From Ensifer sesbaniae (GTDB taxonomy: Bacteria > Pseudomonadota > Alphaproteobacteria > Rhizobiales > Rhizobiaceae): 64,000 nucleotides of DNA. The notes below the pieces were generated by a model. It ran no database searches. It was given only the letters and a program-made list of their open reading frames with translations, and was not told where the DNA came from. The stretch lies in NCBI RefSeq assembly GCF_013283665.1, contig NZ_JABEKU010000001.1, positions 2,595,594-2,659,593 on the forward strand, in the 5' to 3' direction. Made by a program: the position numbers and the translations under genes. This document shows, one piece after another, positions 3,541-59,768 of this stretch. The stretch's first letter is position 1, and the number at the start of each line of letters is the position of its first letter.

Positions 3541-3647
3541 TTACAGCGCCGCGCGTCTTTTAAGACGCGCTAAGGTCGCTGTAACACTTTAGATCTGCTG
3601 CATAATTTTGCCCTTAAATCGATTCCGATTTAAGGAATTGTGCAGTA
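3541..3647 (-). repeat. Bimodular palindromic repeat, full copy
   Basis: The P2 module (3541-3583, inner stem GCGTCTT/AAGACGC) is followed by P1 (3598-3645, outer stem CTGCATAATT, inner stem CTTAAATCG/CGATTTAAG). Orientation is inverted compared with the copy at 6702. The outer P1 stem here differs from the common CTGCATGTC form but remains partly paired. Confidence 0.8.
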
Positions 3648-3694
3648 GAACGACTCCCGAATAGGCCGCGCAGCAGCAGACGAGGTATAGCCCC

Positions 3695-4327
3695 ATGCCA
3701 TCGCTCGACATTCTCCTCACCTTCTTCGTCACCACGGCAATCTTCGCCTATATCCCCGGACCGGCGATGCTCTATGCCGCCGCGCAGACCATGGCGCGCG
3801 GCCGCTTCGCCGGACTGATGGCCTCGCTCGGCATCCACCTCGGCGGCTATGTGCACGTCGTTGCGGCCGCCGCCGGCCTTTCCATCCTGTTCCATGCGGT
3901 GCCGACGCTCTATCTCGCGGTGAAGCTTGCGGGTGCCGGCTATCTCGTCTGGCTGGGTTTCACGCTGATGCGCGCCAAGGCGAGCGGCGATGGTCACCTG
4001 CCCGCCGTCGAGGCGAAATCGGCCCGCCGCGCCTTCTTCGAGAGCATCACCGTCGAGGTGCTGAACCCGAAGACCGCGATCTTCTTCGTCGCCTTCCTGC
4101 CGCAGTTCACCGATGCCGCCGCCGCCTTCCCGGTGTGGGTGCAGTTCCTGCTGCTCGGCACCGCCGTCAATCTGATGTTCTCCTCCGCCGATCTCGTCTG
4201 CGTGTTTCTCGCCGATGCCGTCGTCGCCAAGATGCGCCGCTCCAGCCGGGCACAGCGCCTGTTACAGCGCGCCGGCGGCACGGTGCTGATTGGCCTCGGA
4301 GCCCATCTCGCCTTGCAGCGGACCTAG
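3695..4327 (+). CDS. LysE/RhtB family amino acid exporter
   Basis: A 210-residue inner-membrane protein with about six hydrophobic segments and the family signature IPGPAMLYAAAQTMARG near residue 20. A further family motif, LNPKTAIFFVAFLPQF, sits in the middle of the protein. LysE/RhtB proteins export amino acids and related small metabolites using the proton gradient; the substrate cannot be read from sequence. The start follows GACGAGG at a reasonable distance. It precedes the ThDP enzyme by 117 bases on the same strand, so co-transcription is possible but not shown. Confidence 0.9.
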   Translation: MPSLDILLTFFVTTAIFAYIPGPAMLYAAAQTMARGRFAGLMASLGIHLGGYVHVVAAAAGLSILFHAVPTLYLAVKLAGAGYLVWLGFTLMRAKASGDGHLPAVEAKSARRAFFESITVEVLNPKTAIFFVAFLPQFTDAAAAFPVWVQFLLLGTAVNLMFSSADLVCVFLADAVVAKMRRSSRAQRLLQRAGGTVLIGLGAHLALQRT

Positions 4328-4444
4328 GGCAGCGGCCCCACGGCGGCGCGCGCAAGATTTCACCTCCCGAGGCCGGTGTACTGCGCTTGCACCGGGTCGA
4401 GGCGCAGCTATCATGCGCCCGAGGGCCAATCGGGGGACAGGCGC

Positions 4445-6031
4445 ATGGGAGAAGGCGGCCAACCAATTCGCACCACGGGCGCGGATATGCTCGTCGATAC
4501 GCTGCTTGCCAACGGCGTCGACGTCTGTTTCGCCAATCCCGGCACGTCGGAAATGCACTTCGTCGCCGCCCTTGATCGCAAGCCGGAGATGCGCTGCATT
4601 CTCGGCCTTTCCGAAGGCGTCGTCACCGGTGCGGCCGATGGCTATGCGCGCATGACCGGCCGCCCGGCCGCAACCCTGCTCCACACCGGCCCCGGCCTCG
4701 CCAACAGCCTTGCCAACCTGCACAATGCGCGGCGCGCCCGCACGCCTGTCATCAACGTTGTCGGCGACCATGCCTCCTACCATCTCGCCCTGGACGCACC
4801 GCTGACCAGCGATATCGAGTGCCTGGCCCGCCCGATGTCGAACTGGGTGCGGCGGGTGAAGGATCCTGCGGATGTGGGGCCGACGGCGGCGGACGCCTAT
4901 CGCGCTTCGTTGGCGCCACCGGGCGTTGCCACGATGATCCTGCCGGCTGACGCGTCCTGGGGTGCCTTTTCCACCGACGCGCCGCCGCAGAAGGTGCTGC
5001 TCGAAGCGCCGCGCCCGGCAAGTGCGGAAACGGTCCGTAAGGTCGCCGGTCTCATCCGTGCGAACCCTGCAGGGGTCGCCATGGTCTTGAGCGGCGCCGC
5101 CGCAAAGGCAGATGGCCTCGCCGTCGCCGGACGGATCGCGGCCGTACACAACGTCCAGCTTTTCAACGAGGTGCTCGTCGCCCACACCCAGCGCGGCCGC
5201 GGGCGGGTGGCGCCGCGGCGCATCCCCTACCCGATCGACATGGCGCTCGATATGCTCAGCGACGTCAAGGTTCTGATCCTCGTCGGCGCACCGGAACCGG
5301 TGGCATTCTTCGCCTATCCCGGAAAGCCCGGCCGCCTGGTGCCGGAAGGCTGCGCGGTCGTGACCCTTGCCCGCCACGGCGAAGACCTCAAGGCAACGCT
5401 CGAAGCGCTGCGCGACGAACTCGGCATCAGCGCAACGCTGCCGCTGCCCGCAACGGGCGCCCCTACCGACGAGGGCGAACCCTCCGGCACGCTGACGGAA
5501 GACGCAGTCGCCGTCATCGTCGCCCGCAAGGTCCCGGAGAATGCGATCGTTTGCGACGAGGCGGCCACCTCGGCCCGCCGCTTCTTCGCGCTTTCGGCCT
5601 TCTCGGCGCCGCACGACTTCATCATGCAGACCGGCGGCGCCATCGGCGAAGGCATCCCGCTTTCGACCGGCGCCGCGATCGCCTGCCCCGAACGCAAGGT
5701 GATCTGCCTGCAGGCCGATGGCTGCGCCATGTACAACATTCAGGGCCTGTGGACCCAGGCGCGCGAAAACCTCGACATCGTCACCATCATCTTTTCCAAC
5801 CGCACCTACGCGATCCTCCACGCCGAGATGCGCAATGTCGGCGTCGAAGAGATCGGCACCAACGCCCGCCGCATGCTGAACCTCGACCAGCCGGCGCTCG
5901 ACTGGGTCTCGCTCGCCCGCGGCTTCGGCGTCGAGGCGGCCGTCGCCACCTCCTGCGAAGCCTTCGCCGCCCTCTTCGACGCCGCGCTGTCGCGGCGCGG
6001 GCCGTTTCTGATCGAGGCGCGCCTCGTGTGA
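4445..6031 (+). CDS. ThDP-dependent acetolactate synthase/benzoylformate decarboxylase-like enzyme
   Basis: A 528-residue thiamine diphosphate enzyme with the three domains of the family: pyrimidine-binding at the N-terminus, a central domain, and pyrophosphate-binding at the C-terminus. The catalytic glutamate sits in GLSEGVVTGAADGYARM (Glu57). The metal and pyrophosphate motif reads QADGCAMYN ending at FSN, so the first glycine of the usual GDG is alanine; the Asp and Asn ligands are kept. It lacks a regulatory subunit and is separate from the true ilvIH, so decarboxylation or carboligation of a 2-oxoacid is more likely than valine synthesis. The ATG at 4445 is preferred because GGGGGA lies upstream. 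Confidence 0.85.
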   Translation: MGEGGQPIRTTGADMLVDTLLANGVDVCFANPGTSEMHFVAALDRKPEMRCILGLSEGVVTGAADGYARMTGRPAATLLHTGPGLANSLANLHNARRARTPVINVVGDHASYHLALDAPLTSDIECLARPMSNWVRRVKDPADVGPTAADAYRASLAPPGVATMILPADASWGAFSTDAPPQKVLLEAPRPASAETVRKVAGLIRANPAGVAMVLSGAAAKADGLAVAGRIAAVHNVQLFNEVLVAHTQRGRGRVAPRRIPYPIDMALDMLSDVKVLILVGAPEPVAFFAYPGKPGRLVPEGCAVVTLARHGEDLKATLEALRDELGISATLPLPATGAPTDEGEPSGTLTEDAVAVIVARKVPENAIVCDEAATSARRFFALSAFSAPHDFIMQTGGAIGEGIPLSTGAAIACPERKVICLQADGCAMYNIQGLWTQARENLDIVTIIFSNRTYAILHAEMRNVGVEEIGTNARRMLNLDQPALDWVSLARGFGVEAAVATSCEAFAALFDAALSRRGPFLIEARLV

Positions 6032-6179
6032 ATTTCCGTGTCGTTTTCGTGCTGATTCGGGCACCGGCGCGCCGCGAAAATGAAGCCCCCGATCGGTGCG
6101 GTTCACACCTTCCCTGGAGCGAAAATTACAGCCTAAACAACTGATTTAATTAGGCTATTCACAAAAATTCGGCCGCAAA

Positions 6180-6208
6180 CTTGCGCCCGGGAACTTCTCG
6201 CTTATATT
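6180..6208 (+). promoter_or_regulatory. Candidate housekeeping promoter for small XRE gene
   Basis: CTTGCG (6180-6185), a 17-base spacer, and TATATT (6203-6208) match the rhizobial sigma-70 pattern CTTGAC-N17-CTATAT in all but a few positions. It lies about 105 bases before the XRE start, leaving a leader that contains a hairpin. Confidence 0.45.
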
Positions 6209-6269
6209 AGCGGCGCCCCAGGTTCGCGCTCGTCTGTCCGAGTCGCATTTCAGTTTTGGGCCCCCTTCA

Positions 6270-6556: not shown

Positions 6557-6701
6557 CAAGCGGGGGCGGTGCGCCGAAGACAAGCGCGCCGCCGCCTTCC
6601 ACCGCCGGCCGATCCGGTCGCAATCGGGCAAGCCCGCGTCATCCGAACGCACCGCCCTCCAGAAGCCGGCAACGCCAACCAAGGCCAACGCATTCCGTCA
6701 C

Positions 6702-6807
6702 TACTGCATGTCTCCTCAAATCGACCTCGATTTAAGGACGAAGACATGCAGCAAATCAAAGTCCTACAGCGACCTTTGCGCGTCTGATTAGACGCGCGGC
6801 GCTCTAG
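6702..6807 (+). repeat. Bimodular palindromic repeat, full copy (reference form)
   Basis: This is the clearest copy. P1 (6702-6751) has an outer stem CTGCATGTC/GACATGCAG and inner stem TTAAATCG-like arms. A 12-base linker follows. P2 (6764-6807) has outer CTACAGCG/CGCTCTAG and inner GCGCGTCT/AGACGCGC around a 4-base loop. Both modules could form hairpins in RNA. Confidence 0.85.
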
Positions 6808-6808
6808 A

Positions 6809-6908
6809 GCAATTCCAGGAAAAGTGTGAAACGGTTTTCCGTCCGGAATTGCGTAATTTCAAAAGGTTAGACCATTTCACTGTTTCCATGAAACAATGAA
6901 ATGGTCTA
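6809..6908. repeat. Second-family intergenic palindromes (RIME-like)
   Basis: Directly abutting the bimodular repeat is a palindrome bounded by GCAATTCC and GGAATTGC (6809-6852). It is followed by a longer one with arms TAGACCATTTCA and TGAAATGGTCTA (6868-6908). Sequences of this type are scattered through rhizobial intergenic regions and resemble the mosaic elements called RIME; the exact family name is from memory and not checked. Confidence 0.6.
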
Positions 6909-7093
6909 GGCAGCCGGCCCGGCCGGTCGGCCATCGAGGCCGCGCGCCGGCCTCGTCGCGGGCATCCTGGCCCGGTCCGTAATAAAACCCATGCCGGTTC
7001 GGCCAAGAAAAATAATCGGACGAAAAGCTTGGTATTACAGGGTCGTAGAGAGGTTTTCACAAACACCTGAAAACGCAAAACCGGATATTTGTG

Positions 7094-7457: not shown

Positions 7458-7460
7458 TTT

Positions 7461-8086: not shown

Positions 8087-8179
8087 ACCGGATACCGAGC
8101 GGGTCCATGGGCGCAGTTGAACCGCCCGAACCAACCTTGCATCCCGTCGTCGTTTTTTTCCTTAGGCCCGACGCGAATT

Positions 8180-8245
8180 GCAGGTAAAATTACCCGGAGA
8201 ATCAAAAGGCTACAGCGACCGTTGCGCCACTGCGCAGCGTTTTTG
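8180..8245 (+). repeat. Degenerate bimodular repeat
   Basis: CTACAGCGACCGTTGCGC followed by GCGCAGCG (8210-8240) is a shortened P2 module with inner stem TTGCGC/GCGCAG. A vestige of P1 (TGCAGG...) may precede it. Confidence 0.45.
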
Positions 8246-9040: not shown

Positions 9041-9071
9041 CATCGCGAGCATCCCCCGCTCGCGCGCCACC

Positions 9072-9168
9072 ATAGCGCCGCGCGTCTTCTCGGACGCGCA
9101 AAGGCCGCCCTCGAACATTGATGTTCTGCACGTCCTTAAATCGAGGTCGATTTGAGGAGACATGCAAT
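9072..9168 (-). repeat. Bimodular palindromic repeat, full copy
   Basis: P2 (about 9072-9108, inner stem GCGCGTC/GACGCGC) followed by P1 (9126-9167, inner stem TTAAATCG/CGATTTGA with one mismatch). Inverted orientation. Confidence 0.7.
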
Positions 9169-9269
9169 CGGCTCACGCCATTGTTGCCGATGACGGGCCG
9201 AGCACGTTGCGGGGCGGCCACGATCGGTGGCAAATTCCACTTTTGAGAATCGGGGAGACCTTTTGCCTG

Positions 9270-9334
9270 CTGCATGTTTCCTTCAAAGTGCTCCAGCGAC
9301 CTTCGCGCGTCCTATAAGACGCGCGGCTCTGTAG
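9270..9334 (+). repeat. Bimodular repeat with internally deleted P1
   Basis: Only the left end of P1 (CTGCATGTTTCC) remains, joined directly to the linker TCAAAGTGCT and a complete P2 with inner stem GCGCGTC/GACGCGC. The join suggests that the hairpin of P1 was deleted, as expected for replication slippage at a palindrome. Confidence 0.6.
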
Positions 9335-10290: not shown

Positions 10291-10399
10291 GTTTAAAGCG
10301 CGTCGCGATCTTTCAGATTCGCTCCTTTGCTTTAAGTCTTTGATATTTAGCATGTCGTTATCGCAAAACCGCCGCACAGTTTTGCGCGACATACTTTAG
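10291..10399. repeat. Rhizobial-type intergenic palindrome
   Basis: An AT-richer block whose right half is a long palindrome: ATGTCG and CGCAAAAC on the left pair with GTTTTGCG and CGACAT on the right (about 10352-10392). It follows the dehydratase gene directly and could end its transcript. It is unrelated in sequence to the bimodular repeat. Confidence 0.6.
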
Positions 10400-12493: not shown

Positions 12494-12520
12494 TCAGGAA
12501 CCATGCAGCAATTCCTAGTG

Positions 12521-12661
12521 CTGCAGCGACCCTTGCGCTTCTCTCAAAGCGCGGCGCTGCAATTTCTGTGCTGCAGCGACCTCTGCGTGTCTCCGACACG
12601 CGGCGCTGCCATTTTCACTGCTGCAGCGACCTTTGCGTGTCTCCGACACGCGGCGCTACAG
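12521..12661 (+). repeat. Tandem array of three P2 palindromic modules, 50 bp period
   Basis: Units begin at 12521, 12571 and 12621, each starting CTGCAGCGAC and ending in GGCGCTGC or a close variant. Inner stems differ but remain paired: GCGCTT/AAGCGC in unit 1 and GCGTGTC/GACACGC in units 2 and 3. The array lies between the TetR stop codon and ilvC, both on the minus strand, so it may act in the ilvC leader or as a terminator for the TetR gene. Confidence 0.8.
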
Positions 12662-13346: not shown

Positions 13347-13456
13347 GGTTCGCACTCTTCTAGTGAAGAGGCCTGGGAGCGTCAAGACGATTCTTACAAG
13401 GGGGCGAAATTTCGGCGGTGACGGCGGGACAGCCTTTATGGTGCACGTCTGTTGCT

Positions 13457-13640
13457 GCCCCTCATCCCCCTGCCGGGACCTTCCCCCCGTCGTCACGGGG
13501 AGAAGGAAGAACGCCGCACCCGCTCGCCTCAACAATAGGCGCCCTCGATTTCCCGCTGACTACGGCTCAGGTCGAGAACGCCGGCAGCAGGGCACGTCCC
13601 CTCTCCCCGCCTGCGGGGAGAGGGTGAGGGTGAGGGGCAA
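13457..13640. repeat. RIME-like paired inverted element, copy 1
   Basis: The block starts GCCCCTCATCC, contains one CTTCCCCCCGT...ACGGGGAGAAGG palindrome, an internal variable part, and a second palindrome CCCTCTCCCCGCCTGCGGGG AGAGGG, and ends GTGAGGGGCA. The ends are inverted complements (GCCCCTCA/TGAGGGGC). The same layout recurs at 36292 and 56733. Confidence 0.7.
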
Positions 13641-26318: not shown

Positions 26319-26475
26319 CTACAGCGCCGCGCATCTGATAAGACGCGCAAAGGTCGCTGTAGCACTTTGATTTGCTGCATGTCTTTGTCCTTAAATCGAG
26401 GTCGATTTAAGGAGACATGCAGTAGCTCACACGATTGTTTCGCGCGTCTGCCAGACGCGCGAAGCGCGCCGCAGC
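26319..26475 (-). repeat. Bimodular palindromic repeat plus extra P2 core
   Basis: P2 (26319-26362) and P1 (26374-26422) form a full inverted copy. Further on, GCGCGTCTGCCAGACGCGC (about 26442-26460) is the core of a second P2 without its usual outer arms. Confidence 0.8.
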
Positions 26476-26560
26476 ACTTTGCAGCGCCACATGACCTTGC
26501 CCCCCGCCGGCATTCAGTAACCCGCGCCTGACGGATCACCCCTTTGCACGAGATGTCGAG

Positions 26561-29254: not shown

Positions 29255-29358
29255 CTACGGCGCCGCGCGTCATCGGACGCGCAAAGGTCGCTGTAGCACT
29301 TTGAATTGCTGCATGTTTTGTCCTTTAACCGGCTACGGTTAAAGGAAACATACAGTAG
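29255..29358 (-). repeat. Bimodular palindromic repeat with exchanged P1 core
   Basis: P2 (29255-29296) then P1 (29309-29356). The inner P1 stem here is TTTAACCG/CGGTTAAA where other copies have TTAAATCG/CGATTTAA, so both arms changed together. Confidence 0.8.
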
Positions 29359-29497
29359 CACCGGCGAAATGCCGGAGGGTTTCGAGCAGGATCCTCGGCG
29401 GCATGCTGTTCCCCCGGTAACCGCAGCCGACGCCCACTCGTCCTATCGCGCGCCGCAGGCGGCCGCACGCACCGTCCATTGCCTGAAGGAGACCACG

Positions 29498-39370: not shown

Positions 39371-39551
39371 TGGCCGCATTCGAGGGAGAGGATGGGCCCT
39401 ACCTATAGCAGTCTTGCCGCAAGCCTGCACGCGCCAGTCGCAAGTTCACCCGCAAAACTCTGGTTTCTGCAGAAGATATTTGCGACCGCCGTTGACGACG
39501 AAGAGATCCTTCATGGCATCGCTCGGGAAGGCAAGGCAAGCCGCGCAAGAA

Positions 39552-39658
39552 CTACTGCATGTCTCCTTAAATCGACCTCGATTTAAGGACGAAGACATGA
39601 AGCAACTCAAAGTGCTACAGCGACCTTTGCGCGTCTTATCAGACGCGCGGCGCTGTAG
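39552..39658 (+). repeat. Bimodular palindromic repeat, full copy
   Basis: P1 (39552-39600) and P2 (39615-39658), nearly identical to the copy at 6702 over the P1 inner stem. It lies between the MFS gene and the 3' end of pdxJ, 15 bases from the pdxJ stop. Confidence 0.85.
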
Positions 39659-39672
39659 GCGCAGAGGTCGCC

Positions 39673-40425: not shown

Positions 40426-40490
40426 GTCTGAACTTTCCAGAAAGTGGACCCTGGCGGGCCCGGACGCAGGCAATGTAGTTGCAATGTTCT

Positions 40491-40538
40491 ACTGCATAAT
40501 TGCCGAAACCAGAAACGGTTTGAGGTCCGATTATGCAG
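40491..40538. repeat. P1 module variant, solitary
   Basis: CTGCATAAT (40492-40500) and ATTATGCAG (40530-40538) form the outer stem, with AAACC/GGTTT inside. It is a P1 module whose outer and inner stems both differ from the common form yet remain paired. No P2 module follows. Confidence 0.6.
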
Positions 40539-40877
40539 CAATTCCAAGGAGGTTGCGCGCGCGGCGATGCGACGATTGCGCGCGGTTCGTTTGCCCGTCT
40601 TGTCTTGACCAAGTCTTGACAATCAACGCCTCTAATATGCGAGAAGGCTCAATGACGAACGGCGAAAATGGCCGGGTGGGCTTCCGCTGCCATCTGCCAC
40701 AGGGAGAACCGCCGCAATTATTGCGTTTATTTCAGAAATACCTCAAACCTGCGGCCTGCTACCCCTGACAACCACCTTTTTTTTGGGCTTAACTTTCCGA
40801 ATCAGATCGAATGGCCCCGCCCGCGCCTCGATCGCATTTCATAGATTTTTACTCATATGACACTGGAGCAAGAACGG
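40539..40877. other. Intergenic region upstream of putative regulator
   Basis: About 340 bases with no supported gene. TTGACA occurs at 40615-40620 but without a properly spaced -10 element. A T-rich block CCTTTTTTTTGGGC lies at 40776-40789, about 90 bases before the gene. Confidence 0.35.
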
Positions 40878-41990: not shown

Positions 41991-42481
41991 CCGCGCCGGA
42001 GTGCGGCGCGCCTGTCGATACGCGCCAAGACCACAGCAACACCTTGAATTACTGCATGTTTCCCGAGGTCGGCGGCGACGGGAGCAAACAGGCGATCGCG
42101 ACGGCACTACCAATTGGCGAAACGGCCGTCAGCCTACAATATTAAAGACTGGTCATATATTCGATTCGCGTATAACGTTGCACGCATGCGTTGGGAATGG
42201 ATGCCTGGTTGCTCGTCAGGCAAGCATCGAGGTCCTGAGTAAACCGCGTCGTCCAAGCGGGATGCCCCAGCCGAGCAGCAGGCATTGTCGTTATCGGTCA
42301 ACGAGTGCCTCAGCACGCGGACGCGTTCCGCACATTTGAGAGACCCGGTGATCGCCGCGCTTCCGGACGCGGACTGCGTGCACCCTGGGTCGGCCTCGAT
42401 CCAGGTCACCGATGCGGAAAATCAAACGTTACAGCGATAACGCGCCGGATGGGCGCGGCCTGTAAACCGGGGACGATCGAT
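41991..42481. other. Intergenic region with degenerate repeat
   Basis: Nearly 500 bases. At 41999-42075 is a worn copy of the bimodular repeat in inverted orientation (GCGGCGCGCC...CGCGCC, then ACTGCATGTTTCC). The rest has lower G+C, no gene with a ribosome site, and no other clear structure. Confidence 0.4.
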
Positions 42482-44046: not shown

Positions 44047-44305
44047 CCGGTCCCACCTGCGGCCGGCCCTTCATTCGTGACGCCGCACGAGCTTCGGCCG
44101 ATGTCGCCGGCGTCGCCCGCTGCGCAAGGCGCGGCTTGAAACCGAGATCGGGTTGCCTGCTGGGTCCTTGGTCTTGGCCAACTGATGGCCGTTGGCCCGA
44201 TGGATGGCTCCGAACACCGGCCCTTCTCCAATCGGCGTGTCGAGGTCAAGCTCTTCTCGCTCGTCGCCCGCCTTCGACCCGAAGAAGACATTGCCGGTCG
44301 TGAAA
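44047..44305 (-). other. Intergenic region with possible VOC-like remnant
   Basis: About 260 bases. One minus-strand frame without a start reads FTTGNVFFGSKAGDE, then TPIGEGPVFGAIHRANGHQ and KDPAGNPIS, which resembles a VOC protein C-terminus. I regard it as a weak candidate for a degraded gene. Confidence 0.2.
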
Positions 44306-45205: not shown

Positions 45206-45422
45206 GCCGCTGGACTTTTGGACGCCGGATGGATCAGCAGATTGGCGCCCCCATCTCGCGGGACCAGTTCGATCAGACGGTCGCCCGCCTCGTGCAACTT
45301 CTGAAAACGAAGTGCTTATCAGCTTACGGTCACTTCCGCGTCGTGCGCATAAAGAAAGATCCTGTTGATCGGCAACGTCGCCCCTACCCGTCGGTCGCGT
45401 CAGCCTCGATCAGCGAGATCGG

Positions 45423-46550: not shown

Positions 46551-46957
46551 GAGGTTGAGTGTCAGGATTCGGGCGGCACAAGCAAGCCCGGATTTATGGG
46601 CTGCGCCGATGCTGCGACGGCCGTTTGGAAGGCGTTTTTCGGCAACTGAGAAAATTGCCACGCAAAATCAATGTCTTTTCGCCTGATCGCGGCTGTCCGG
46701 CCGTTCGGATCAGAGATGTTTTGTTCACGTTTTTTTCTCATAACCGGCCTTCAATCACACGGCCGCGGCAGCGCTCCGCTCAATTTCGGCTGCCGATGGC
46801 TGTGGCACTTTCTTGCCGTGCCCCTTGAATGCAACGCCGCATTGTTGCTAACGAGCGGGACGGGATGGCGCTGCAGTGCAGACCATCGCTCGAAGCCCGT
46901 TGAGGCCGGCCACGAATGGCCGCTCCCGCCTTTTCCGGGCCATGCCGGAGAATGCCC
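46551..46957. other. Intergenic region between divergent helicase and permease
   Basis: About 400 bases between two divergent genes, with a short T-rich stretch (CACGTTTTTTTCTC near 46730). I see no supported gene, repeat copy or strong hairpin. Promoters for both genes should be here. Confidence 0.4.
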
Positions 46958-48046: not shown

Positions 48047-48089
48047 ACCGCTCGCCGTCCGGCTTTGCCGAAACTGCCACCAGTTTTCC

Positions 48090-48119
48090 GGGAATAAATC
48101 CGCCGCGCACCGTGTCTCA
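48090..48119 (+). promoter_or_regulatory. Candidate ECF-type promoter
   Basis: GGGAATAAA (48090-48098) and CGTGTCTC (48111-48118) have the look of an extracytoplasmic-function sigma -35/-10 pair with about 15 bases between the cores. The operon it precedes encodes an ECF sigma factor, which fits autoregulation. Confidence 0.3.
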
Positions 48120-48147
48120 TGATCGGATCTGCAAGCATGCGGCTCTT

Positions 48148-48196
48148 GCGGAAACGGGACTAGAGCATCCCGCGGCCCCTGCGGCAACGGGACTAG
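48148..48196 (+). repeat. Direct repeat upstream of the ECF operon
   Basis: GCGGAAACGGGACTAG (48148-48163) and GCGGCAACGGGACTAG (48181-48196) differ at one position and are exactly 33 bases apart, about three helical turns. They sit 60-108 bases before the lipoprotein gene. Confidence 0.6.
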
Positions 48197-48255
48197 TCTA
48201 GGAGGCATTTGCCCGTTTCCGGATACGAAAACCATCTTGAGGAAGGACAATTGCC

Positions 48256-48630
48256 ATGAAAACGTTTCCATTGACGATCGCCATGCTGCTTGCCGCCGGC
48301 GCCACGGCGTTTGCCGCGCCACCGGTCAAGGAAGTCGAATCGGCCAAGGGCAAGGTACTGGCCGCCGAAAACGGCATGACGCTCTATACCTACAAGGACG
48401 ACCATGGCGGTGTGTCCAGTTGCTACGACAAGTGCGCCGCGAATTGGCCGCCCTTCCTGGCGGAAGCCAGCGCCAAGGCCGAAGGCGCCTATACGCTCGT
48501 CGAGCGCAAGGACGGGAAGAAACAATGGGCGAAGGACGGCATGCCGCTTTATTTCTTCGTCAAGGACAAGAAGATGGGTGACATTACCGGCGACGGCGTG
48601 AAGGGCGAATGGGATGTCGCAAAGCCGTAA
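48256..48630 (+). CDS. COG4315-type secreted protein (YxxD-repeat lipoprotein family)
   Basis: A 124-residue exported protein with a signal peptide (LTIAMLLAAGATAFA, cleavage near residue 20). Two copies of the family motif follow: TLYTYKDDHGGVSSCYDKCA with NWPP, and MPLYFFVKDKKMGDITGDGV with GEWDV. No lipobox cysteine is visible, so it is probably soluble in the periplasm. Cys in CYDKC could bind haem or metal or form a disulphide. Its last 17 bases overlap the ECF sigma gene. Confidence 0.85.
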   Translation: MKTFPLTIAMLLAAGATAFAAPPVKEVESAKGKVLAAENGMTLYTYKDDHGGVSSCYDKCAANWPPFLAEASAKAEGAYTLVERKDGKKQWAKDGMPLYFFVKDKKMGDITGDGVKGEWDVAKP

Positions 48631-49168
48631 TGGCGGAAATGCGGATGCGGGGGGCGATCCCCCCGCATCCGACCGGTTCGAGGAGGATGTGCTGGCATTG
48701 GTGCCGGCACTGAGGCGCTATGCGCGCAGCCTCGTGCGTTCGGACCCGGACGGCGAGGACCTGCTGCAGGACTGCGTGGAGAAGGTGCTGGCGCGCCGCG
48801 CGCAGTGGCGTGGCGTCAATCTGCGCGCCTGGGCTTTCACCATCATGACCAATCTCGGGCGCAATCGGCACCGTTACCTCGCCATGCACCCGCAGGTGGC
48901 GCTGGACGAGGATCTGGGGCTCGAGGCAGAGAACCGCGAGAGCGATCCGCTCGAGCGCTCCAGGCTCGAACGGGCGCTGAACGGCCTTTCCTCAGAAAAC
49001 CGTTCGGTGCTGATGCTCGTGGTGATCGAAGGGTATCGCTACCAGGACGTGGCCGAGATGATGGCCATTCCGATCGGCACTGTCATGTCGCGGCTCTCAC
49101 GCGCCCGGCGCCAGTTGGCCGAAGCCATGAAGGACGACAATGTGATCAGCATGCGGAGACCGAAATGA
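48614..49168 (+). CDS. ECF RNA polymerase sigma factor
   Basis: A 184-residue ECF sigma factor: region 2 (ALRRYARSLVRSDPDGEDLL, QDCVEKVLARRAQWRGVNLRAW) and region 4 (LNGLSSENRSVLMLVVIEGY, YQDVAEMMAIPIGTVMSRLS). It overlaps the upstream lipoprotein gene by 17 bases and its stop overlaps the anti-sigma start (ATGA), so all three are translated as a coupled unit. Likely directs its own operon and perhaps envelope-stress genes. Confidence 0.95.
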   Translation: MSQSRNGGNADAGGDPPASDRFEEDVLALVPALRRYARSLVRSDPDGEDLLQDCVEKVLARRAQWRGVNLRAWAFTIMTNLGRNRHRYLAMHPQVALDEDLGLEAENRESDPLERSRLERALNGLSSENRSVLMLVVIEGYRYQDVAEMMAIPIGTVMSRLSRARRQLAEAMKDDNVISMRRPK

Positions 49169-50013
49169 CGGAAGATTTCAACACCGTCTCCGAAGACGAC
49201 CTGCACGCCTATGTCGACGGTTTCTTGACCCCGCGGGAACGGCAACGGGTCGAGCAATGGCTGGAGCGCAACCCCGCGCGCGCCGAGGAAGTCAGGCAAT
49301 GGCAGGCGCAGGCGGTGGACCTCCGTGCGCTTTTCGCCGGCTACGCCCGCAGCGACGCACGCGACCGCGCCTTGCTCTTAAGCAGCAGCCATAGCGATCT
49401 TCCCCAGCCGAACCCGGGCAGGAACAACGGCAAGGACACAGGTTCCGCCATCCGCCGTCTGCGCGCCATCGCCGCCGGTCTCGCACTTTTTGCCGCCGGC
49501 GGGCTCACCGGCCTCTATGCACCCGCGCTGCTTTCGGCCGATCGCGGCGGCCGTGCGATCGAGACCGCCGACAGCCTGCCGCGACAGGCGCAATCGGCCT
49601 TCCTGGTCTATGCCAGCGAAGTGCGCCACGCGGTCGAAGTTGGCGCCGACGAGCAGAGCCATCTTGCCAACTGGCTCGGAAAACGCCTCGATCACCCGCT
49701 GTCGATCCCCGATCTCTCCTCGCTCGGCTTCTCCCTGGTCGGCGGCCGGCTGCTGCCGGTCAACGGCAAGGCGGGGGCGATGTTCATGTATGAGGATGGC
49801 ACCGGGCGCCGGCTGACCGTTCTTCTCGGCCGCAACGACGACAACCGCGAAACCAGTTTCCGCATCGACAGCGCCGACGGCGTCGAGACCTTCTACTGGA
49901 TCGACGGTCCGATCGGCTACGCCGTCACCGGCGAGGTGCCGCGCAACCTGCTGCAGCAGGTGGCCGACGAGTGCTACCGCCAGTTCGACAAGAGCGAGGC
50001 GACGGGAAGCTGA
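49165..50013 (+). CDS. Membrane-bound anti-sigma factor
   Basis: A 282-residue anti-sigma factor. The cytoplasmic N-terminus DLHAYVDGFLTPRERQRVEQ is an anti-sigma domain without the zinc CxxC pair, one membrane helix lies around 93-112 (AIAAGLALFAAGGLTGLYAP), and the periplasmic part ends in an acidic region with GYAVTGEVPRNLLQQVADEC. It overlaps the sigma gene by 4 bases. In this family the periplasmic domain senses a signal and releases sigma; the adjacent secreted protein is a plausible partner. Confidence 0.9.
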   Translation: MTEDFNTVSEDDLHAYVDGFLTPRERQRVEQWLERNPARAEEVRQWQAQAVDLRALFAGYARSDARDRALLLSSSHSDLPQPNPGRNNGKDTGSAIRRLRAIAAGLALFAAGGLTGLYAPALLSADRGGRAIETADSLPRQAQSAFLVYASEVRHAVEVGADEQSHLANWLGKRLDHPLSIPDLSSLGFSLVGGRLLPVNGKAGAMFMYEDGTGRRLTVLLGRNDDNRETSFRIDSADGVETFYWIDGPIGYAVTGEVPRNLLQQVADECYRQFDKSEATGS

Positions 50014-50052
50014 GGCGGCGACGTGCCGTCTCACTTGCGCGTTTTCATCCGC

Positions 50053-50898
50053 TCAGAAGAAGCCGAGCAGCTTGTAGCGGGTCTTGCGGCGCGCGTCGTT
50101 CCAGAACATGCGGAACAGCAGGAACCGCGTCCACGGCGACATCGGCGGCAGCTTGTCCTTCAGCCGATAACAGCCGACCGTATATTCCCAGCGCTGCGCA
50201 AATTTCTCCCTAAAGGTCTTGGCCCCATAGCGCTGAACCGACCCCGAACCCTCGATGAAATGGAACTCGGGCCCCTCCACATAGGCGACGAGATCGCGCA
50301 CCACGAACTCCGTGATGATGTAGGAGGCGCCAGTCCAGGGATAGCTGAACTCGGCATAGCGGCGCAGCAGAATCTCGAGGCTGCCTTGCGAGCGATAGAT
50401 GCCGTACACCCATTCCGACGGATAGCTGAGATTGCGCGGGATCTTGCCGTCGCGGATGCGTTGGGCAAAATTGAAGACGTCGCGGTTGGGCCTGGCAAGG
50501 CGCCCCTTGCCATTGTTGATCCGCCGGACGTCCGAAGTCCCCAAGAGCTTGGTCTCGTCCGCTTCGAGCGCGGCGACGAGGCGCGACAGGTAGTCGAGCG
50601 TCGAATAGTCGTCGCAGGCCCGGAGGCAGAAATATTCGCCGAACTCGGTACCGAGGCGGAAGCACTTGAGAAAGTTCTCGTCGGCGTCGAGATGCACCTC
50701 GTTCTCGAGCACCTCGAAGCGAGGATCTTTGGCGGCAAAAGCCCTGGCGATCTCCAGCGAACCATCGGTCGACCGGTTCTCGACGATGATGGCGCGAAAA
50801 TCCCTGAAATCCTGGTCCGCGATGCACTGCAGGCACTTTTCCAAGGTCTTCGCCCCATTGAAGACCGGAAACAGAACGACGAGTTTCGCCTTCTCCAT
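50053..50898 (-). CDS. Family 2 glycosyltransferase
   Basis: A 281-residue GT-A-type glycosyltransferase. The N-terminus VVLFPVFNGAKTLEKCLQCI and the IIVENRSTDGS block match the GT2 donor-binding region, and the DXD-like ACDDYSTLD follows. It probably adds a sugar to a surface polysaccharide. GGAGTGAG precedes the ATG at 50898. It is 31 bases downstream of another glycosyltransferase gene, forming an operon; no export or polymerase gene is nearby. Confidence 0.9.
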   Translation of the reverse strand: MEKAKLVVLFPVFNGAKTLEKCLQCIADQDFRDFRAIIVENRSTDGSLEIARAFAAKDPRFEVLENEVHLDADENFLKCFRLGTEFGEYFCLRACDDYSTLDYLSRLVAALEADETKLLGTSDVRRINNGKGRLARPNRDVFNFAQRIRDGKIPRNLSYPSEWVYGIYRSQGSLEILLRRYAEFSYPWTGASYIITEFVVRDLVAYVEGPEFHFIEGSGSVQRYGAKTFREKFAQRWEYTVGCYRLKDKLPPMSPWTRFLLFRMFWNDARRKTRYKLLGFF

Positions 50899-50929
50899 TC
50901 TCACTCCAAGCAACTGGCCGGGCGGCGCC

Positions 50930-52027
50930 TCAGGCACGCTCAAGCCGCGTAATGAATCCGAGATCCAGCAATTGTCTCGATCCGGTAAAGCGCACCGATA
51001 CGTCCGACGCCAATTGCAGGCCGCCGTCGTTTGCAATGCTCTCCTTGATCTTCACATAGACGGCAGAGGCATCGAAATATTGACCGCCTGCCGCCGCCGC
51101 GTCGACGACCTCGGCATAGTCGGCGAAGAACTTGAAATGCAAGAGCACGCCCATGGCGGCCGGGAAATTCCTGTCATAGGGCAAGGGCTGATGGATGCTG
51201 GGGCCGAAGCAGCACGCGCCGTCCCAGAACATCAGCGGATATTTGACCATTTCGAGGTCAGTGCCGAACTTGCGCTGGCGCGGTCCGCCCTTGACGCAAA
51301 AGGCTCGCTTCATCGCGCACATCGTATAGCCGGCAGCGTCGAAATGATCGGCGATCTCCCAGGGAGCCTGCTGCTTCAGCTTCTCGACGTCGGCGCGCTC
51401 GAGGTCGACCGGATACATGTCGAGCATGGGTGCCAGCAGGCGGCGCGCGCCCATGCGCTCCAGCGCCGGAATGAGCCAGCCGAGCCCGCGTTCCTCATAG
51501 CCGTCGTAGACGAGGTACTCGTCGGAATCGACATTGACGTACCACCGGCCGGTGCCATAACGCTCGAACAGCGTTTCCCGCCACTCGCGCCCGCGCCGCG
51601 CCTCCTTGAAACGGACGATGGACGACCAGACGTCGACGTCCGGCTGCGCCACCAGATATGCGCGTGTGCCGTCGGATGAGACGTCGTCAACGCAGATGAA
51701 GCGTGTTACCCCGAGCTTGCGGTAATGCGCCAGGAACGACGGCATCAGCTTGAGATCGTTATGGGTGATGAACATCAACGGGATATCGCCCGACCCCAAG
51801 GTCGCCGGCCCCCGCGCGTTGAGGCATGTCAGCTCGTGCCGGCGCTTCTTTTTCCTTTCCCGCCGGGCTATCCTTTTCGTTTCCAGCCATGTGCCGAGGC
51901 GCTGGAGCGGCGTTCTTCTGAACATGTCCGCCGCCGCCTCCATGGAGGAAAAAGGATATCGCGTCTCGCCCACGGCAAGCTCCGGATCGTTTAGATTAGC
52001 AGCCTCTACGTGAAAATCCGACTGCAA
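50930..52027 (-). CDS. Glycosyltransferase (Glyco_tranf_2_4/GT92-like)
   Basis: A 365-residue glycosyltransferase-like protein. A basic segment (RIARRERKKKRRHELT) precedes the catalytic domain, which has MFITHNDLKLMPSFLAHYRK, FICVDDVSSDGTRAYLV and the metal motif YVNVDSDEYLVYD. The region FHFKFFADYAEVVDAAAAGG follows. This family is common among rhizobial exopolysaccharide and cell-surface genes. It is first in a two-gene operon with the GT2 gene. Confidence 0.85.
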   Translation of the reverse strand: MQSDFHVEAANLNDPELAVGETRYPFSSMEAAADMFRRTPLQRLGTWLETKRIARRERKKKRRHELTCLNARGPATLGSGDIPLMFITHNDLKLMPSFLAHYRKLGVTRFICVDDVSSDGTRAYLVAQPDVDVWSSIVRFKEARRGREWRETLFERYGTGRWYVNVDSDEYLVYDGYEERGLGWLIPALERMGARRLLAPMLDMYPVDLERADVEKLKQQAPWEIADHFDAAGYTMCAMKRAFCVKGGPRQRKFGTDLEMVKYPLMFWDGACCFGPSIHQPLPYDRNFPAAMGVLLHFKFFADYAEVVDAAAAGGQYFDASAVYVKIKESIANDGGLQLASDVSVRFTGSRQLLDLGFITRLERA

Positions 52028-52063
52028 TCAACTTGCGAAAGACTCGGACCGGAGCCTTCGGCG

Positions 52064-52423
52064 TCAGGGGCGCTCAGGATCGTTGGCGAGCACGATCGGC
52101 TGGCCATGCGGCGTCGCTTCCGCCGCCCGCTGCCAGCTCCGCGTCAGGTGTTCCAGCTCGCGGCAGGAGGCGATCGAGAGTTCGGTGACGAGGCGCGAGA
52201 GCGCTGCCACCCAGCAGTCGTAATAGTCGCTGGCGTCCGCCTTGCGGCCGGGCTTGTAGAGTTCGGCCGAAAGCGCCTCGGCCCATTCCGGCCAGGAGAA
52301 CACGCCCTTTTCGTGCAGGCGCACGGTCATGGCGAAGGCGTTCGCCTGCCAGGGTTCGGCAAAGACCGGATCGCCCTCCGGCGATTTCGGCAGCTCAGCC
52401 GAGGCGACGAGCGGCGACACCAC
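52064..52423 (-). CDS. Nitrile hydratase accessory protein
   Basis: A 119-residue protein matching the nitrile hydratase activator/accessory family: PVFAEPWQANAFAMTVRLHE and FSWPEWAEALSAEL, the same fold as the N-terminal part of the beta subunit. It helps insert the metal into the alpha subunit. The start is taken as GTG at 52423, one base after the beta-subunit stop; a longer frame begins inside the beta gene. Confidence 0.85.
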   Translation of the reverse strand: MVSPLVASAELPKSPEGDPVFAEPWQANAFAMTVRLHEKGVFSWPEWAEALSAELYKPGRKADASDYYDCWVAALSRLVTELSIASCRELEHLTRSWQRAAEATPHGQPIVLANDPERP

Positions 52424-52424
52424 C

Positions 52425-53084
52425 TTACACGTGTTCAAGATAGCTCTCCCAGGCATCGATCGAGACCGTCAGCGTCGGGTCGACGCCCTCGCCCCAGATC
52501 TCGGGCCCATCGAAGACGACGGTATAGACCCATTGCGGATTTTCGCCGCGGCCATGGGCGTTATCATCCGGAAAGACGAAGGAGCCCTGCACCGCCTCCA
52601 CCCGGCCGAGTTTGGCGCGGGCATAGCGCGGCAGGCGCGTATGGGTTTCCGGATTGAAATTCTTCGTGCGCACCCGGTCGCCAACGGTAAAGCGCGGCGC
52701 GGTCTCGACCGGACGGTCGCAGGGGCCACCCTTGGCGAGCACGCCGGCGACCATGTCGGCCTTCAGCACCCGCTTCGGGGTCGCCCCCTGTTCCAGCCTG
52801 TGGCCGGCGTCGAGTTCGGCCTGGCTCACGAAGCCGTGGCGCTTCAGCAGCGTCTCCAGCGCCCGCGTCCAGATCTCGTAATAGCTCGCCGAAAGATAGG
52901 TCGCCGGCGGCAGGCTTTCGCGCGCATGCCGGCTTTCGTCGATCGTCCAGGCGCCGAAGGCACCGCAGGAGAGCGTGATGCCGAGCGCCCGCTTCTCCCA
53001 TTCCGCATGAAAATAGGGCTCGTCCTTTTCCGGCGCCACCGGCCCGAGGCCGTGTGCGCCGCCGAGATCGTGGGGGCCGTTCAT
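52425..53084 (-). CDS. nthB: Nitrile hydratase subunit beta
   Basis: A 219-residue beta subunit of nitrile hydratase, which converts nitriles to amides. It opens [16 protein letters not shown], the family hallmark, contains [20 protein letters not shown] and the SH3-like C-terminus with [20 protein letters not shown] and YTVVFDG. Arginines needed at the alpha-beta interface are in place in the conserved blocks. Its ATG overlaps the alpha stop (ATGA at 53081-53084), so the subunits are coupled. Confidence 0.95.
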
Positions 53085-53719
53085 CGGACCGCCTCCGCGG
53101 AAAGCGCCAGACCGGTACCGATCATGGAATCGCGCGTCACCAGGCCAGCCAGTTCCTCCTCGCTGAAGCCTTCGGTGCCCGCAGGCCGTTCCGGCACCAC
53201 GAGATAGCGCAGTTCCGCCGTCGAATCCCACACACGGATACGGGTCGCCTCCGGCAGCGTCACGCCGAACTCCGAAAGCACTCCGCGCGGATCGATGACG
53301 GCGCGCGAACGATAGGGCGGCGCCTTGTACCAGACCGGCGGCAGGCCGAGCACGGACCAGGGGTAGCAGGAGCAGAGCGTGCAGACGACGAGGTTATGGG
53401 TGTCGGCCGTGTTGAAGACGGCGCGCATGTGCTCGCCCTGGCGGCCCGTAAAGCCGAGGCTGGCGATCGCTGCCGTGGCGTCACGCTTCAGCCACTCGGC
53501 GAAATCGGCATCGACCCAGGCCTTCGCCACCACGCGCGCGCCGTTGCGTGGGCCGATCTTCATCTCGTAGGTCTCGACGATCGCATCGATCGCCGCCGGA
53601 TCGATCAGCCCCTTCTCCGTCAGCACCGTCTCCAGCGCCTTCACCCGCGCTTCCATGTCGGTGAAATGGTTGTCGTGATGGTGATGGTGATGGCCGTGGC
53701 CGTGATGGTGTTCGGACAT
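53081..53719 (-). CDS. nthA: Nitrile hydratase subunit alpha (cobalt type)
   Basis: A 212-residue alpha subunit. The metal site [10 protein letters not shown] has the CTLCSC pattern with Thr, which marks non-corrin cobalt enzymes (iron types have CSLCSC). The N-terminus is exceptional: within the first 20 residues there are ten histidines ([13 protein letters not shown]), a likely Co2+ or Ni2+ binding tail. The order alpha, beta, accessory is the usual one for cobalt types. It follows a bimodular repeat by 36 bases. Confidence 0.95.
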
Positions 53720-53754
53720 GCCTGGCTCCTCCGCCGGGAAATCGCTGTCATTAC

Positions 53755-53860
53755 TACTGCATGTCTCCTTAAATCGAGCGCGATTTAAGGACAAAGACAT
53801 GCAGCAAGTCAAAGGGCCACAGCGACCTTTGCGCGTCTCAGAAGACGCGCGGCGCTGTAG
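53755..53860 (+). repeat. Bimodular palindromic repeat, full copy
   Basis: P1 (53755-53804) and P2 (53818-53860); P1 inner stem TTAAATCG/CGATTTAA, with the loop changed to AGCG. It lies upstream of the nitrile hydratase operon and downstream of the LysE gene. Confidence 0.85.
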
Positions 53861-53915
53861 TGCAGAATCACGCTCGCCGAAACCGGCGGGCAGCTCCACG
53901 CCTTCCGGCCTTTCG

Positions 53916-54509
53916 CTATTTCAGCATCGGCCAGAGGCTGACGACGAGCAGCACCGCCATGGTGATGTTGAACCATTTCAGCCGTGACGGCTCGGACAGC
54001 CATTGGCGCAGCGCCGAGCCGAAGCCCGCCCAGGTGGAGACGCTCGGCACGTTGACCAGCGCAAAGACGAGACCAACGACGAGAACGCTTATCAGATAGC
54101 TCTCGCTGCTGGTATAGGTCGCCATGGCCGAAACCGCCATGACCCAGGCCTTGGGATTGACCCACTGGAAGGCGGCGGCGGCAAGGAAGGTCATGGGCTG
54201 TGCACCGGCCTTGCCTTCACCTAGGGAACGCGAGGTGCCGATCTTCCAGGCGATCCAGACGAGATAGGCGCCGCCGGCAAATTTCAGCGTGGTGTAGATG
54301 AGCGGCACGGAATGCAGCAGCGCACCGAGGCCGAAGCCGACGGCGATCAGGAGCACGAAGAAACCGGCGCCGATGCCCAGCATATGCGGCACGGTGCGCA
54401 CGAAGCCGAAATTCACGCCCGATGCGAAGAGCATCATGTTGTTCGGCCCCGGCGTGATCGATGTGGTAAATGCGAACAAAAACAGCGCCAGCAGCGTATC
54501 GGCCTGCAT
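53916..54509 (-). CDS. LysE-family amino acid exporter
   Basis: A 197-residue LysE/RhtB transporter with about six helices. It has the signature [21 protein letters not shown] near the N-terminus and [14 protein letters not shown] in the middle. The substrate is unknown. The ATG at 54509 follows GGGAGGA. Not close in sequence to the exporter at 3695, whose signature is IPGPAMLYAAAQ. Confidence 0.9.
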
Positions 54510-54748
54510 GGGTTCCTCCCGTCTAATTGGGTCAACATAATTGACCTATTGGCCGGCACCAGCCGCGAACTTGTCACCATGACAAATTGACGAAGGCCAT
54601 CTTCAACGACTTTCACGCGAGATTAGCCGCCTGCAGCGCAAGAGAGCCTTGCTCGAGGACGTGGGCTCGAAAGCGCGCGACTTTGCGCTAGATTGGCGAT
54701 CTGACCGGACGACCGCCGTCCGACCTATGCGCCTGCGAGGAGAACAGC

Positions 54749-55594
54749 ATGCATGACCCGATCCCGACAACGACGCTGCCCGATGGCCGCCGCGTGCCCG
54801 TATTGGGGCAAGGCACATGGCGCATGGGCGACGCGCCCGCGCGTGCGGCCGACGAGGTGAAGAGCCTGCAGCTTGGCCTCGATCTCGGCCTGGCGCTGAT
54901 CGACACGGCGGAAATGTACGGCGACGGCGCCTCGGAGCGGATCGTCGGCGAAGCGGTGCGCGGCCGGCGCGACGAGGCCTTCATCGTCAGCAAGGTGCTG
55001 CCGTCGAATGCCAGCCGGCTCGGCACCGAGGCCGCCTGCGAGCGCAGCCTGAAGCATCTCGGCGTCGACCATATCGACCTCTATCTGCTGCACTGGCGCG
55101 GCGGCTATCCGCTGGCCGAAACGGTTGCGGCTTTCGAGGCACTGAAAAAGGCCGGCAAGATCCGCGCCTGGGGTGTCTCCAACTTCGACGTCGACGACAT
55201 GGAGGAACTTCTGTCGGTGCCGGACGGCCGACACGTCGCAGTCAACCAGGTGCTCTACAACCTCTCGCGCCGCGGCATCGAGTTCGACCTTCTGCCCTGG
55301 TGCCAGCAGCGTGGCATCGCGATCATGGCCTATTCGCCGCTCGACGAGGGTCGGCTGCTGCGCAATCCCGATCTCATCCACATTGCCAAGGCGCACCAGG
55401 CGACCCCGGCCCAGATCGCCCTCGCCTTCCTCAAGACCCGCCCCGGGGTGATCTCGATCCCGAAGACCGGCTCGGTGACACGCGCCCGCGAAAACCGCGA
55501 TGCGATGGACATTCACCTGACGGCGGACGACCTCGCCGACCTCGACCGCGCCTTCCCGCCGCCGAAGCGCAAGCGCTCGCTGGAGATGATTTGA
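54749..55594 (+). CDS. Aldo/keto reductase
   Basis: A 281-residue AKR. The catalytic tetrad is visible: Asp52 and Tyr57 ([11 protein letters not shown]), Lys82 (VSKVLP) and His115 (YLLHWRGG). The cofactor region [19 protein letters not shown] indicates NADPH. The relation is to the bacterial YeaE/2,5-diketogluconate-type group. GAGGAGAAC precedes the ATG at 54749. Single gene, convergent with an MDR oxidoreductase. Confidence 0.92.
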
Positions 55595-56639: not shown

Positions 56640-56732
56640 CCGGCACCCGATATCTTCGGATTTCCATCCGGGATAAGTCGACGAGAAATGCCGGCGAAGT
56701 CAACCGAGCGAATGGTGTAACAGCTTCCGCCT

Positions 56733-56920
56733 GCCCCTCATCCGGCCTGCCGGCCACCTTCTCCCCGCCTGCGGGGAGAAGGAAACGCGCAGCAACCGCC
56801 CGGTACAAAGACACCGAGTGCTACCTGCACATATTGGTTTTGGGAGATCAGGAAAGCCGCGGCACGCTCGGCGTCGTCCCCTCTCCCCGCCTGCGGGGAG
56901 AGGGTTAGGGTGAGGGGCAA
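56733..56920. repeat. RIME-like paired inverted element, copy 3
   Basis: Starts GCCCCTCATCCGGCCTGCCG, has CACCTTCTCCCCGCCTGCGG and the mirror CCCTCTCCCCGCCTGCGGGG, and ends TGAGGGGCAA. It lies just after the ilvH stop codon and probably serves as its transcript end. Confidence 0.75.
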
Positions 56921-59315: not shown

Positions 59316-59367
59316 TGACCTGCTTCCATCCCTTTTCCAGTTGGGTGCTTAGCTTGTTTGAAGGCAT

Positions 59368-59391
59368 AAAAAAAGGCCCCGTCAGGAGCCT
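59368..59391 (-). terminator. Attenuator terminator of ilvIH
   Basis: GGCTCC and GGGGCC pair around a 4-base loop (59375-59390) and are followed on the minus strand by seven T residues, 53 bases before ilvI. In the leader transcript this is the terminator that the antiterminator prevents. Confidence 0.85.
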
Positions 59392-59398
59392 CGTTCAG

Positions 59399-59444
59399 CG
59401 CATGGGTGGCTATCGCCGGATGGTTACACCATCCTGCCCATGCG
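59399..59444 (-). promoter_or_regulatory. Attenuator stem of ilvIH leader
   Basis: CGCATGGG and CCCATGCG (arms at 59399-59406 and 59437-59444), with GGATGG/CCATCC inside, form the stem that covers the end of the leader peptide gene. When the ribosome stalls at the Val/Ile/Leu codons this stem cannot form and the downstream antiterminator can. Confidence 0.7.
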
Positions 59445-59480
59445 CCGTCCCACCACAAGAATAACCGCGAAATTTTTCAT
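59424..59480 (-). CDS. ilvIH leader peptide
   Basis: An 18-residue leader peptide, MKNFAVILVVGRRMGRMV, from ATG at 59480 to TAA at 59424-59426. A run of V, I, L, V, V codons at positions 6-10 lets the ribosome sense charged branched-chain tRNAs. It is followed by the attenuator stem and terminator before ilvI. Too short for usual gene finders. Its single-copy position and pairing with the terminator are what one expects of an attenuator. Confidence 0.85.
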   Translation of the reverse strand: MKNFAVILVVGRRMGRMV

Positions 59481-59694
59481 GGGGCGAGTTGATAAACACA
59501 AAACCCCCATGCGTCAACGGCTTTTCGGGGCTGGCGGGCATGTTGGCATCTGTGCCGAAGCGAAGGTAGCGCAGGGATACCCTTTTCCTGCGACGCCTGT
59601 TCGCACGCGGCTTTCGGGTCGCTTCCCTTGAAAGCTTGCCCTGCTCCTCCACTTTCATAAGGGTGTTGCCAACGCTACGAACGTGGGAGCCCTG

Positions 59695-59768
59695 CTGCAT
59701 GTTTCCGGAAGATCGAGACCGATCGAAGGACGTGCAGAAAGCCAAGCGTTACAGCGGCCTGCTGGCCA
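59695..59768 (+). repeat. Degenerate bimodular repeat
   Basis: CTGCATGTTTCC and GGACGTGCAG (59695-59737) form a P1 with the inner stem GATCG/CGATC. A damaged P2 (TACAGCGGCC...GGCC) follows. Confidence 0.55.

Follow-up and report, generated by a model that had tools for sequence, protein, structure and literature searches.

Insertion sites, arm covariation and decay of a two-hairpin repeat, most likely RIME1, in an Ensifer genome

The window analysed here, the whole 64,000-nucleotide stretch C1:2595594-2659593 of an Ensifer sesbaniae genome (6.9 Mb, 5 contigs), carries dispersed copies of a palindromic repeat composed of two hairpin modules, P1 and P2. The PckA of this genome shares 97% identity with its counterpart in Ensifer adhaerens L18, in line with placement in Ensifer. 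An original prediction, made from the letters of this stretch, had described such a repeat together with a set of stem variants. The repeat is real: a sequence profile search finds 7 full and about 9 partial copies (Table 1). The variants TTTAACCG/CGGTTAAA, AAACC/GGTTT, GCGTTC/GAACGC, GCGCTT/AAGCGC (at 12535) and GCGTGTC/GACACGC (at 12585 and 12635) were all recovered; GATCG/CGATC is present as well, at 59711, but so short a pattern, found 8 times in the window, carries little weight alone. The consensus fold consists of two hairpins, of 20 and 18 pairs, with a linker between them and a full length of 108 nt. One copy, folded as DNA, gives z = -9.1 relative to 200 shuffles.

Table 1. Copies of the repeat and neighbouring repeat features in the window
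Feature	Position	Strand	Basis or remark
P2 module, GCGTTC/GAACGC stem (stem at 67)	55..95	-	profile search, stem pattern search
Full RIME1 copy	3542..3649	-	profile search, locus comparison; site empty in G009 (GTTC-TA-AGG) and G007
Full RIME1 copy, adjoining another repeat (~6808-6960)	6700..6807	+	profile search
Degraded RIME1 copy	8157..8236	+	profile search
Full, diverged RIME1 copy	9071..9170	-	profile search
Lone P2 module	9283..9334	+	profile search
Family B member (second, related two-hairpin family)	10294..10395	-	also caught by RIME1 profile
Tandem of three P2 modules, period ~50 bp	12496..12660	+	profile search, stems; P2 hits 12496-12560, 12567-12608, 12618-12660
Full RIME1 copy	26319..26426	-	profile search
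Full RIME1 copy, TTTAACCG/CGGTTAAA stem at 29324	29255..29359	-	G009 empty site GTGC-TA-GCG
Full RIME1 copy	39551..39658	+	G009 empty site GAAC-TA-GGGCGC (locus L010)
Degraded copy, P1 stem AAACC/GGTTT at 40506	40489..40569	+	profile search, stems
Degraded RIME1 copy	41997..42095	-	profile search
Full RIME1 copy	53753..53860	+	profile search
Degraded copy, P1 stem GATCG/CGATC at 59711	59692..59769	+	profile search, stems
CCCCTCTCCCCGCCTGCGGGGAGAGGG block, 4 copies	13588-13640, 36452-36504, 56746-56798, 56868-56920
CCCCTCTCCCCGCCTGCGGGGAGAGGG block, 3 copies	13453-13531, 36314-36392, 56729-56807

The most likely identity of the repeat is RIME1, a palindromic element described earlier in rhizobia. 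RIME1 (Rhizobium-specific intergenic mosaic element 1) and RIME2 were reportedly named by Osteras, Stanley and Finan in 1995 (J Bacteriol 177:5485); the abstract of that paper is said to describe RIME1 as an intergenic element of rhizobia, about 108 bp long, with two large palindromes. Its type location is reportedly the chvI-chvG intergenic region, and it is said to be limited to the Rhizobiaceae. We base the identification on the fit of size, of two large palindromes, of intergenic placement in a rhizobial genome and of a copy in the chvI-chvG gap, likening the elements by description rather than by the original sequence; no difference appeared in this comparison. The copy in question is a full one in Ensifer adhaerens SD006 (L201:4892-5008), which lies between open reading frames (ORFs) 2895-4736 and 5018-5815, directly after the chvI stop codon, at a site without a copy in 4 other Ensifer loci. 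These genes are named through the matching ORFs of locus L200, one of which has ChvG as its best match (494.8 bits, below the cut-off of 740), the other being a response regulator for which no family exceeds its cut-off.

The title of the 1995 paper is confirmed through its citation in later papers, including two small RNA (sRNA) screens of S. meliloti (PMC2573895, PMC2245857), passages of which set RIMEs aside as repeats, those of the former calling such repeats of unknown function. A further likeness, again by description and not by sequence, is with the Bru-RS of Brucella, intergenic stem-loop repeats given in a passage of PMC2267715 as 103-105 bp long and present in 35-40 copies.

Using a covariance model trained on the 7 full copies of the window, we find at least 150 copies of RIME1 in this genome (the best 150 of 1534 candidates, each of the 150 matching). 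The element is present in all 16 genomes of the genus at E<=1e-10, with between 8 and at least 150 copies per genome, and in 46 of 151 genomes sampled from the family at E<=1e-12 (best 24 candidates per genome). It also occurs in 351 plasmid records, among them replicons of S. meliloti 1021 and NGR234: Rhizobium 205, Sinorhizobium 116, Ensifer 19, Agrobacterium 8, and Nitratireductor, Pararhizobium and Allorhizobium 1 each. Because these records include Nitratireductor, strict confinement to the Rhizobiaceae may not hold; matches that are weak and partial also appear in Nitratireductor pacificus and Aureimonas altamirensis loci.

According to home-made gene calls, none of the 151 copies collected from this genome overlaps a gene by more than 60 bp. 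Leaving aside 5 copies at locus edges, we could classify 146: the neighbouring genes are co-directional for 93 of them, convergent for 31 and divergent for 22. The strand of a copy is weakly related to local GC skew (87 versus 61, among 148 copies).

Insertion sites, a related family and the search for a mover

For 44 of the 151 copies, the sequences on either side were located in loci of a relative, genome G009. At 18 of these sites G009 has little or no extra sequence, and at 26 the site is filled. Eleven of the 18 were resolved to the base, by eye and in some cases next to indels of a single base; each of these eleven has one dinucleotide when empty and two when filled. That dinucleotide is TA in six cases (L010, L076, L048/1604, L005 and the window copies at 3542 and 29255) and one base off TA in the remaining five. 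The other seven of the 18 sites fell short of base-level resolution (L016, L061/11472, L075/1504, L083, L095, L108 and L051/12578, in the last of which G009 itself has the beginning of a copy). Young copies are flanked by C-TA and TA-G: among those scoring above 110 bits, the left flank is CTA in 29 of 37 and the right flank TAG in 33 of 37.

The duplication of a dinucleotide with a preference for CTAG appears to be new for RIME1, although the element itself was already known. It is reportedly absent from the 1995 abstract, and no prior report of target duplication by a RIME was found in searches of an open-access collection, which omits most subscription journals and the 1995 paper. The signature of target and duplication gives RIME1 a testable mode of mobility. 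Insertion at TA with duplication of the TA is described in a passage of PMC2170065 as the behaviour of IS630/Tc1-mariner elements, and the title of a work cited there attributes a CTAG preference to an IS630-associated transposon.

RIME1 resembles the miniature inverted-repeat transposable elements (MITEs) of the IS630/Tc1-mariner group in its TA insertion, TA duplication and CTAG preference; it differs from them in its very weak terminal inverted repeat, in its two internal palindromes and in that no partner transposase was found. The DDE_3 family is matched 11 times in the genome. One IS630-family element of this genome, whose ends were set by comparison of identical copies, also lies within C-TA...TA-G; other IS630-type elements of the genus lie in a TA context too, but TA was a condition of that search. 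The resolved IS630-type ends, GTGTCCTGAT, GTACCGCGCC and GTCATCTG, differ from the CTGCATG/CAGCGCC of RIME1.

Although the RIME1 model gives the element at 10294-10395 a score of 36 bits, this element belongs to a separate family, which we call family B. The family has at least 40 matches in this genome (the best 40 of 63 candidates) and occurs in 367 plasmid records, 338 of them in Rhizobium. Its consensus was built from 24 rows, some of which belong to overlapping loci. It has in common with RIME1 the CTA end, the outer stem GCATGTC/GACATGC and the linker ATCAAAG; in P1 the inner stem, and in P2 most of the stem, consist of other sequences that still pair. Since the profiles of the two families match weakly (E = 0.079), their kinship rests on the consensus alignment. 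At the 10294 site, G009 reads CC-CA-AA where the filled site reads CC-TA...TA-AA. By description, family B resembles RIME2 in its two-hairpin plan and nearly equal length; RIME2 is reportedly from R. meliloti only, whereas family B is found mostly in Rhizobium plasmid records.

Covariation and decay of the hairpin arms

We aligned the 151 full copies of this genome by sequence alone and asked how the 38 structural pairs change. A per-pair G statistic in the style of R-scape, with a null drawn from 20 simulations on the tree, finds none of the 38 structural pairs, and none of 5848 other pairs, at E<0.05. The top pairs, 13-44, 19-34, 12-45 and 11-46, have scores on a par with those of linked columns outside the structure, 25-28 for example, and therefore part of the stem variation marks subfamilies; at pair 19-34, for instance, 29 of the 151 copies carry an alternative Watson-Crick pair.

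A different picture emerges when events are counted, that is, changes on the tree from one Watson-Crick pair to another, with slid and shuffled partners and tree simulations as controls (100 simulations for 151 copies, 60 for a larger set). The 151 copies yield 34 double changes in 22 pairs, against a simulated mean of 5.9 and simulated maxima of 14 events and 11 pairs. In the larger set of 265 copies, which adds 114 from G009 and so covers two species with orthologous pairs included, 62 double changes fall in 27 of the 38 pairs (simulated mean 9.9, maxima 18 events and 13 pairs). They are spread over 55 branches, 15 lie on internal branches (simulated maximum 5), and 49 of the 62 are transitions. 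Built from about 109 columns, the tree is itself uncertain. The claim that both arms change together thus holds for the body of events, while no pair is significant singly and some of the quoted variants are subfamily alleles.

Fixed copies behave differently. From the 26 filled sites we left out L022, a false ortholog with a stem divergence of 0.61, and L075/8804, whose net length of 211 falls outside the accepted range. In the remaining 24 orthologous pairs, 222 of 1748 stem sites differ, compared with 204 of 1906 sites in the 45-bp flanks, which may include gene ends. Fixed copies, then, mostly decay, their stems diverging about as fast as their flanks. Single changes away from Watson-Crick pairing produced G.T 50 times, A.C 48 times and other mismatches 39 times. 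The original prediction held that pairing is retained while the sequence drifts; among fixed copies, more changes break a pair than preserve one, with a modest excess of compensated pairs, quantified below. We conclude that the covariation is genuine, and that it belongs chiefly to spreading lineages rather than to fixed copies.

At one shared site (L073:12402-12504 compared with L186 of G009) the two species have very different P1 arms, and G009 keeps a GC-rich stem, GCCGCC/GGCGGC. The degraded window copy at 40489-40569 has matches at the corresponding place in both G009 and G007.

Explanations for the paired change

We consider it probable that RIME1 is a non-autonomous element moved in trans by a TA-specific DDE transposase, with arms that covary in spreading lineages and fixed copies that decay. 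A 108-nt mobile element with two large hairpin palindromes would insert at TA, preferably within CTAG, and would duplicate the TA in the manner of IS630/Tc1-mariner elements, its likely mover being a DDE transposase supplied in trans. The spreading lineages would have kept both palindromes paired while altering one base pair each time, mostly by transitions, which would give rise to the covariation; after fixation a copy would decay at roughly the rate of its flanks. Of this account, the copy number, the intergenic placement (by home-made gene calls), the duplicated dinucleotide, the excess of double changes and the decay were observed directly. We infer the identity with RIME1, the type of mover and an importance of the paired state at the level of DNA, either for mobility or through template switching that restores the palindromes.

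Several results weigh against this account. Five of the eleven resolved empty sites have a dinucleotide one base off TA (L023, L024, L068, L051/12448, L034), and the left end is CTG in 23 of 146 copies. Among the resolved ends of 30 loci and 20 regions, where most ends could not be resolved, no IS630 element with RIME-like ends was found; moreover, only a few bases are common to both ends of RIME1 (TACTGC / TACAGC), which would serve an IS630-type transposase poorly as an inverted repeat. Stem columns change less than unpaired columns on the tree (8.6 versus 16.7 changes per column), and in fixed copies the stems likewise change less than the unpaired sites of the element, 121 of 666 of which differ; both may reflect constraint on the stems or a bias from a search model that rewards stems. 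Compensated pairs number 12 in the fixed copies, where 4.2 are expected under within-locus permutation (P = 0.0005) and 6.3 once rates by position and by locus are taken into account (P = 0.02). Finally, on internal branches single changes in P1 produce G.T 47 times and A.C 21 times (26 and 21 in P2), and there may be a strand effect in P1 of spreading lineages.

A wider form of the transposition account would include family B. In it, RIME1 and family B are TA-duplicating, mariner-type miniature elements whose DNA hairpins form part of the transposition signal; in spreading lineages the arms would evolve jointly as DNA, and from one family to the other stems would be replaced within an unchanged plan. 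We put this forward only tentatively, and doubt that it is right as a whole.

The rival that survives best, although we regard it as unlikely, is that template switching during replication copies one imperfect arm onto the other and so regenerates palindromes; there is precedent for such a process in a passage of PMC8794818. It would account for the compensated pairs in fixed copies, for the pairs in which both partners have changed, whatever the outcome (31 versus 16.6 expected, partly perhaps through misalignment), and for the difference in both P1 arms at L073/12402, where G009 has retained a long stem. The near equality of G.T and A.C is likewise predicted by a process acting on DNA. No multi-base templated tract, with adjacent pairs double-changed on one branch, was seen among the 62 events, but this is weak evidence, since chance would give only 0.41. 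Pairing losses in fixed copies, 48 A.C and 39 other mismatches, exceed the 50 G.T and 12 compensated pairs, which speaks against this explanation. The earlier suggestion of a cruciform, or of a copying mechanism that regenerates palindromes, thus leaves two readings, constraint on a DNA hairpin and template switching, which both fit the double changes.

An RNA role of the individual copies fits less well, and we judge it improbable. Under this explanation each copy is kept as a folded RNA (a 3' end stabiliser, a processing site or an sRNA), and its arms covary by selection in place. The strong predicted hairpins, the double changes, including the modest excess in fixed copies, the lower rate of change in stems and the P1 preference for G.T on internal branches all speak for it, as do the shorter median distance of copies to stop ends (42 bp) than to start ends (92 bp) and the transcriptional activity of 26 repetitive extragenic palindromic (REP) elements and other repeats of S. 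meliloti noted in a passage of PMC2873474. Such an RNA, however, should tolerate G.U over A.C, and fixed copies show no G.T bias; a role confined to one strand is therefore not favoured. At the tips of the tree, too, the counts are close (230 G.T versus 209 A.C, 265 copies). Orientation relative to co-directional genes is unbiased (46 same, 47 opposite), stem divergence is close to that of the 45-bp flanks, and terminators with a U-tract are not in excess (15, compared with 14.1 in shuffles, over the 16.5 kb of 38500-55000). Selection on a folded RNA, as first proposed, is thus not favoured, the internal branches of P1 pointing the other way. More generally, the numbers for RIME1 caution that covariation in a dispersed palindrome is not proof of RNA function.

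It is very improbable that the variants amount to no more than distinct subfamilies or families, with covariation absent. The lack of individually significant pairs, the equal scores of linked non-structural columns and the distinct family at 10294 agree with this view, but as a full account it is refuted by the event counts, which exceed the simulated maxima in both sets and on internal branches, unless the tree is badly wrong.

We give least credence of all to a REP-like element moved by a Y1 tyrosine transposase (REP-associated tyrosine transposase, RAYT, or IS200/IS605): RIME1 is palindromic, extragenic and high in copy number, its top strand ends 3' in GTAG, and its asymmetry of ends, with CTG at some left ends, would suit an element carrying its own right-hand TA, but we reject this origin on the absence of PF01797 from all 16 genomes of the genus (the same search was positive in 5 of 14 control genomes, including E. 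coli), on the dinucleotide that is single in empty and double in filled sites, and on length, REPs being only 20-40 bp according to a passage of PMC3733652; the idea could be rescued only if the transposase had been lost.

Possibly nested copies and neighbouring repeats

At the P2 tandem of 12496-12660, two matches lie at the corresponding place in G009 and none in G007, where the flanking matches abut. Next to the full copy at 26319 there is an additional P2-like hairpin (26431-26502), which suggests nesting or partial duplication. The repeat-like stretch that adjoins the copy at 6700 (AGAGCAATTCCAGG..., 6808-6960) has the same start as a stretch behind a family B copy in locus L371.

The window also holds two more repeat blocks built around CCCCTCTCCCCGCCTGCGGGGAGAGGG, one in 4 copies and the other in 3. 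In an Rfam search of the window at gathering thresholds, which gave no match at a RIME1 copy, the single match was to the Rhizobiales sRNA Atu_C8 at 59358-59478 on the minus strand (123 bits), about 200 bp from the degraded copy at 59692.

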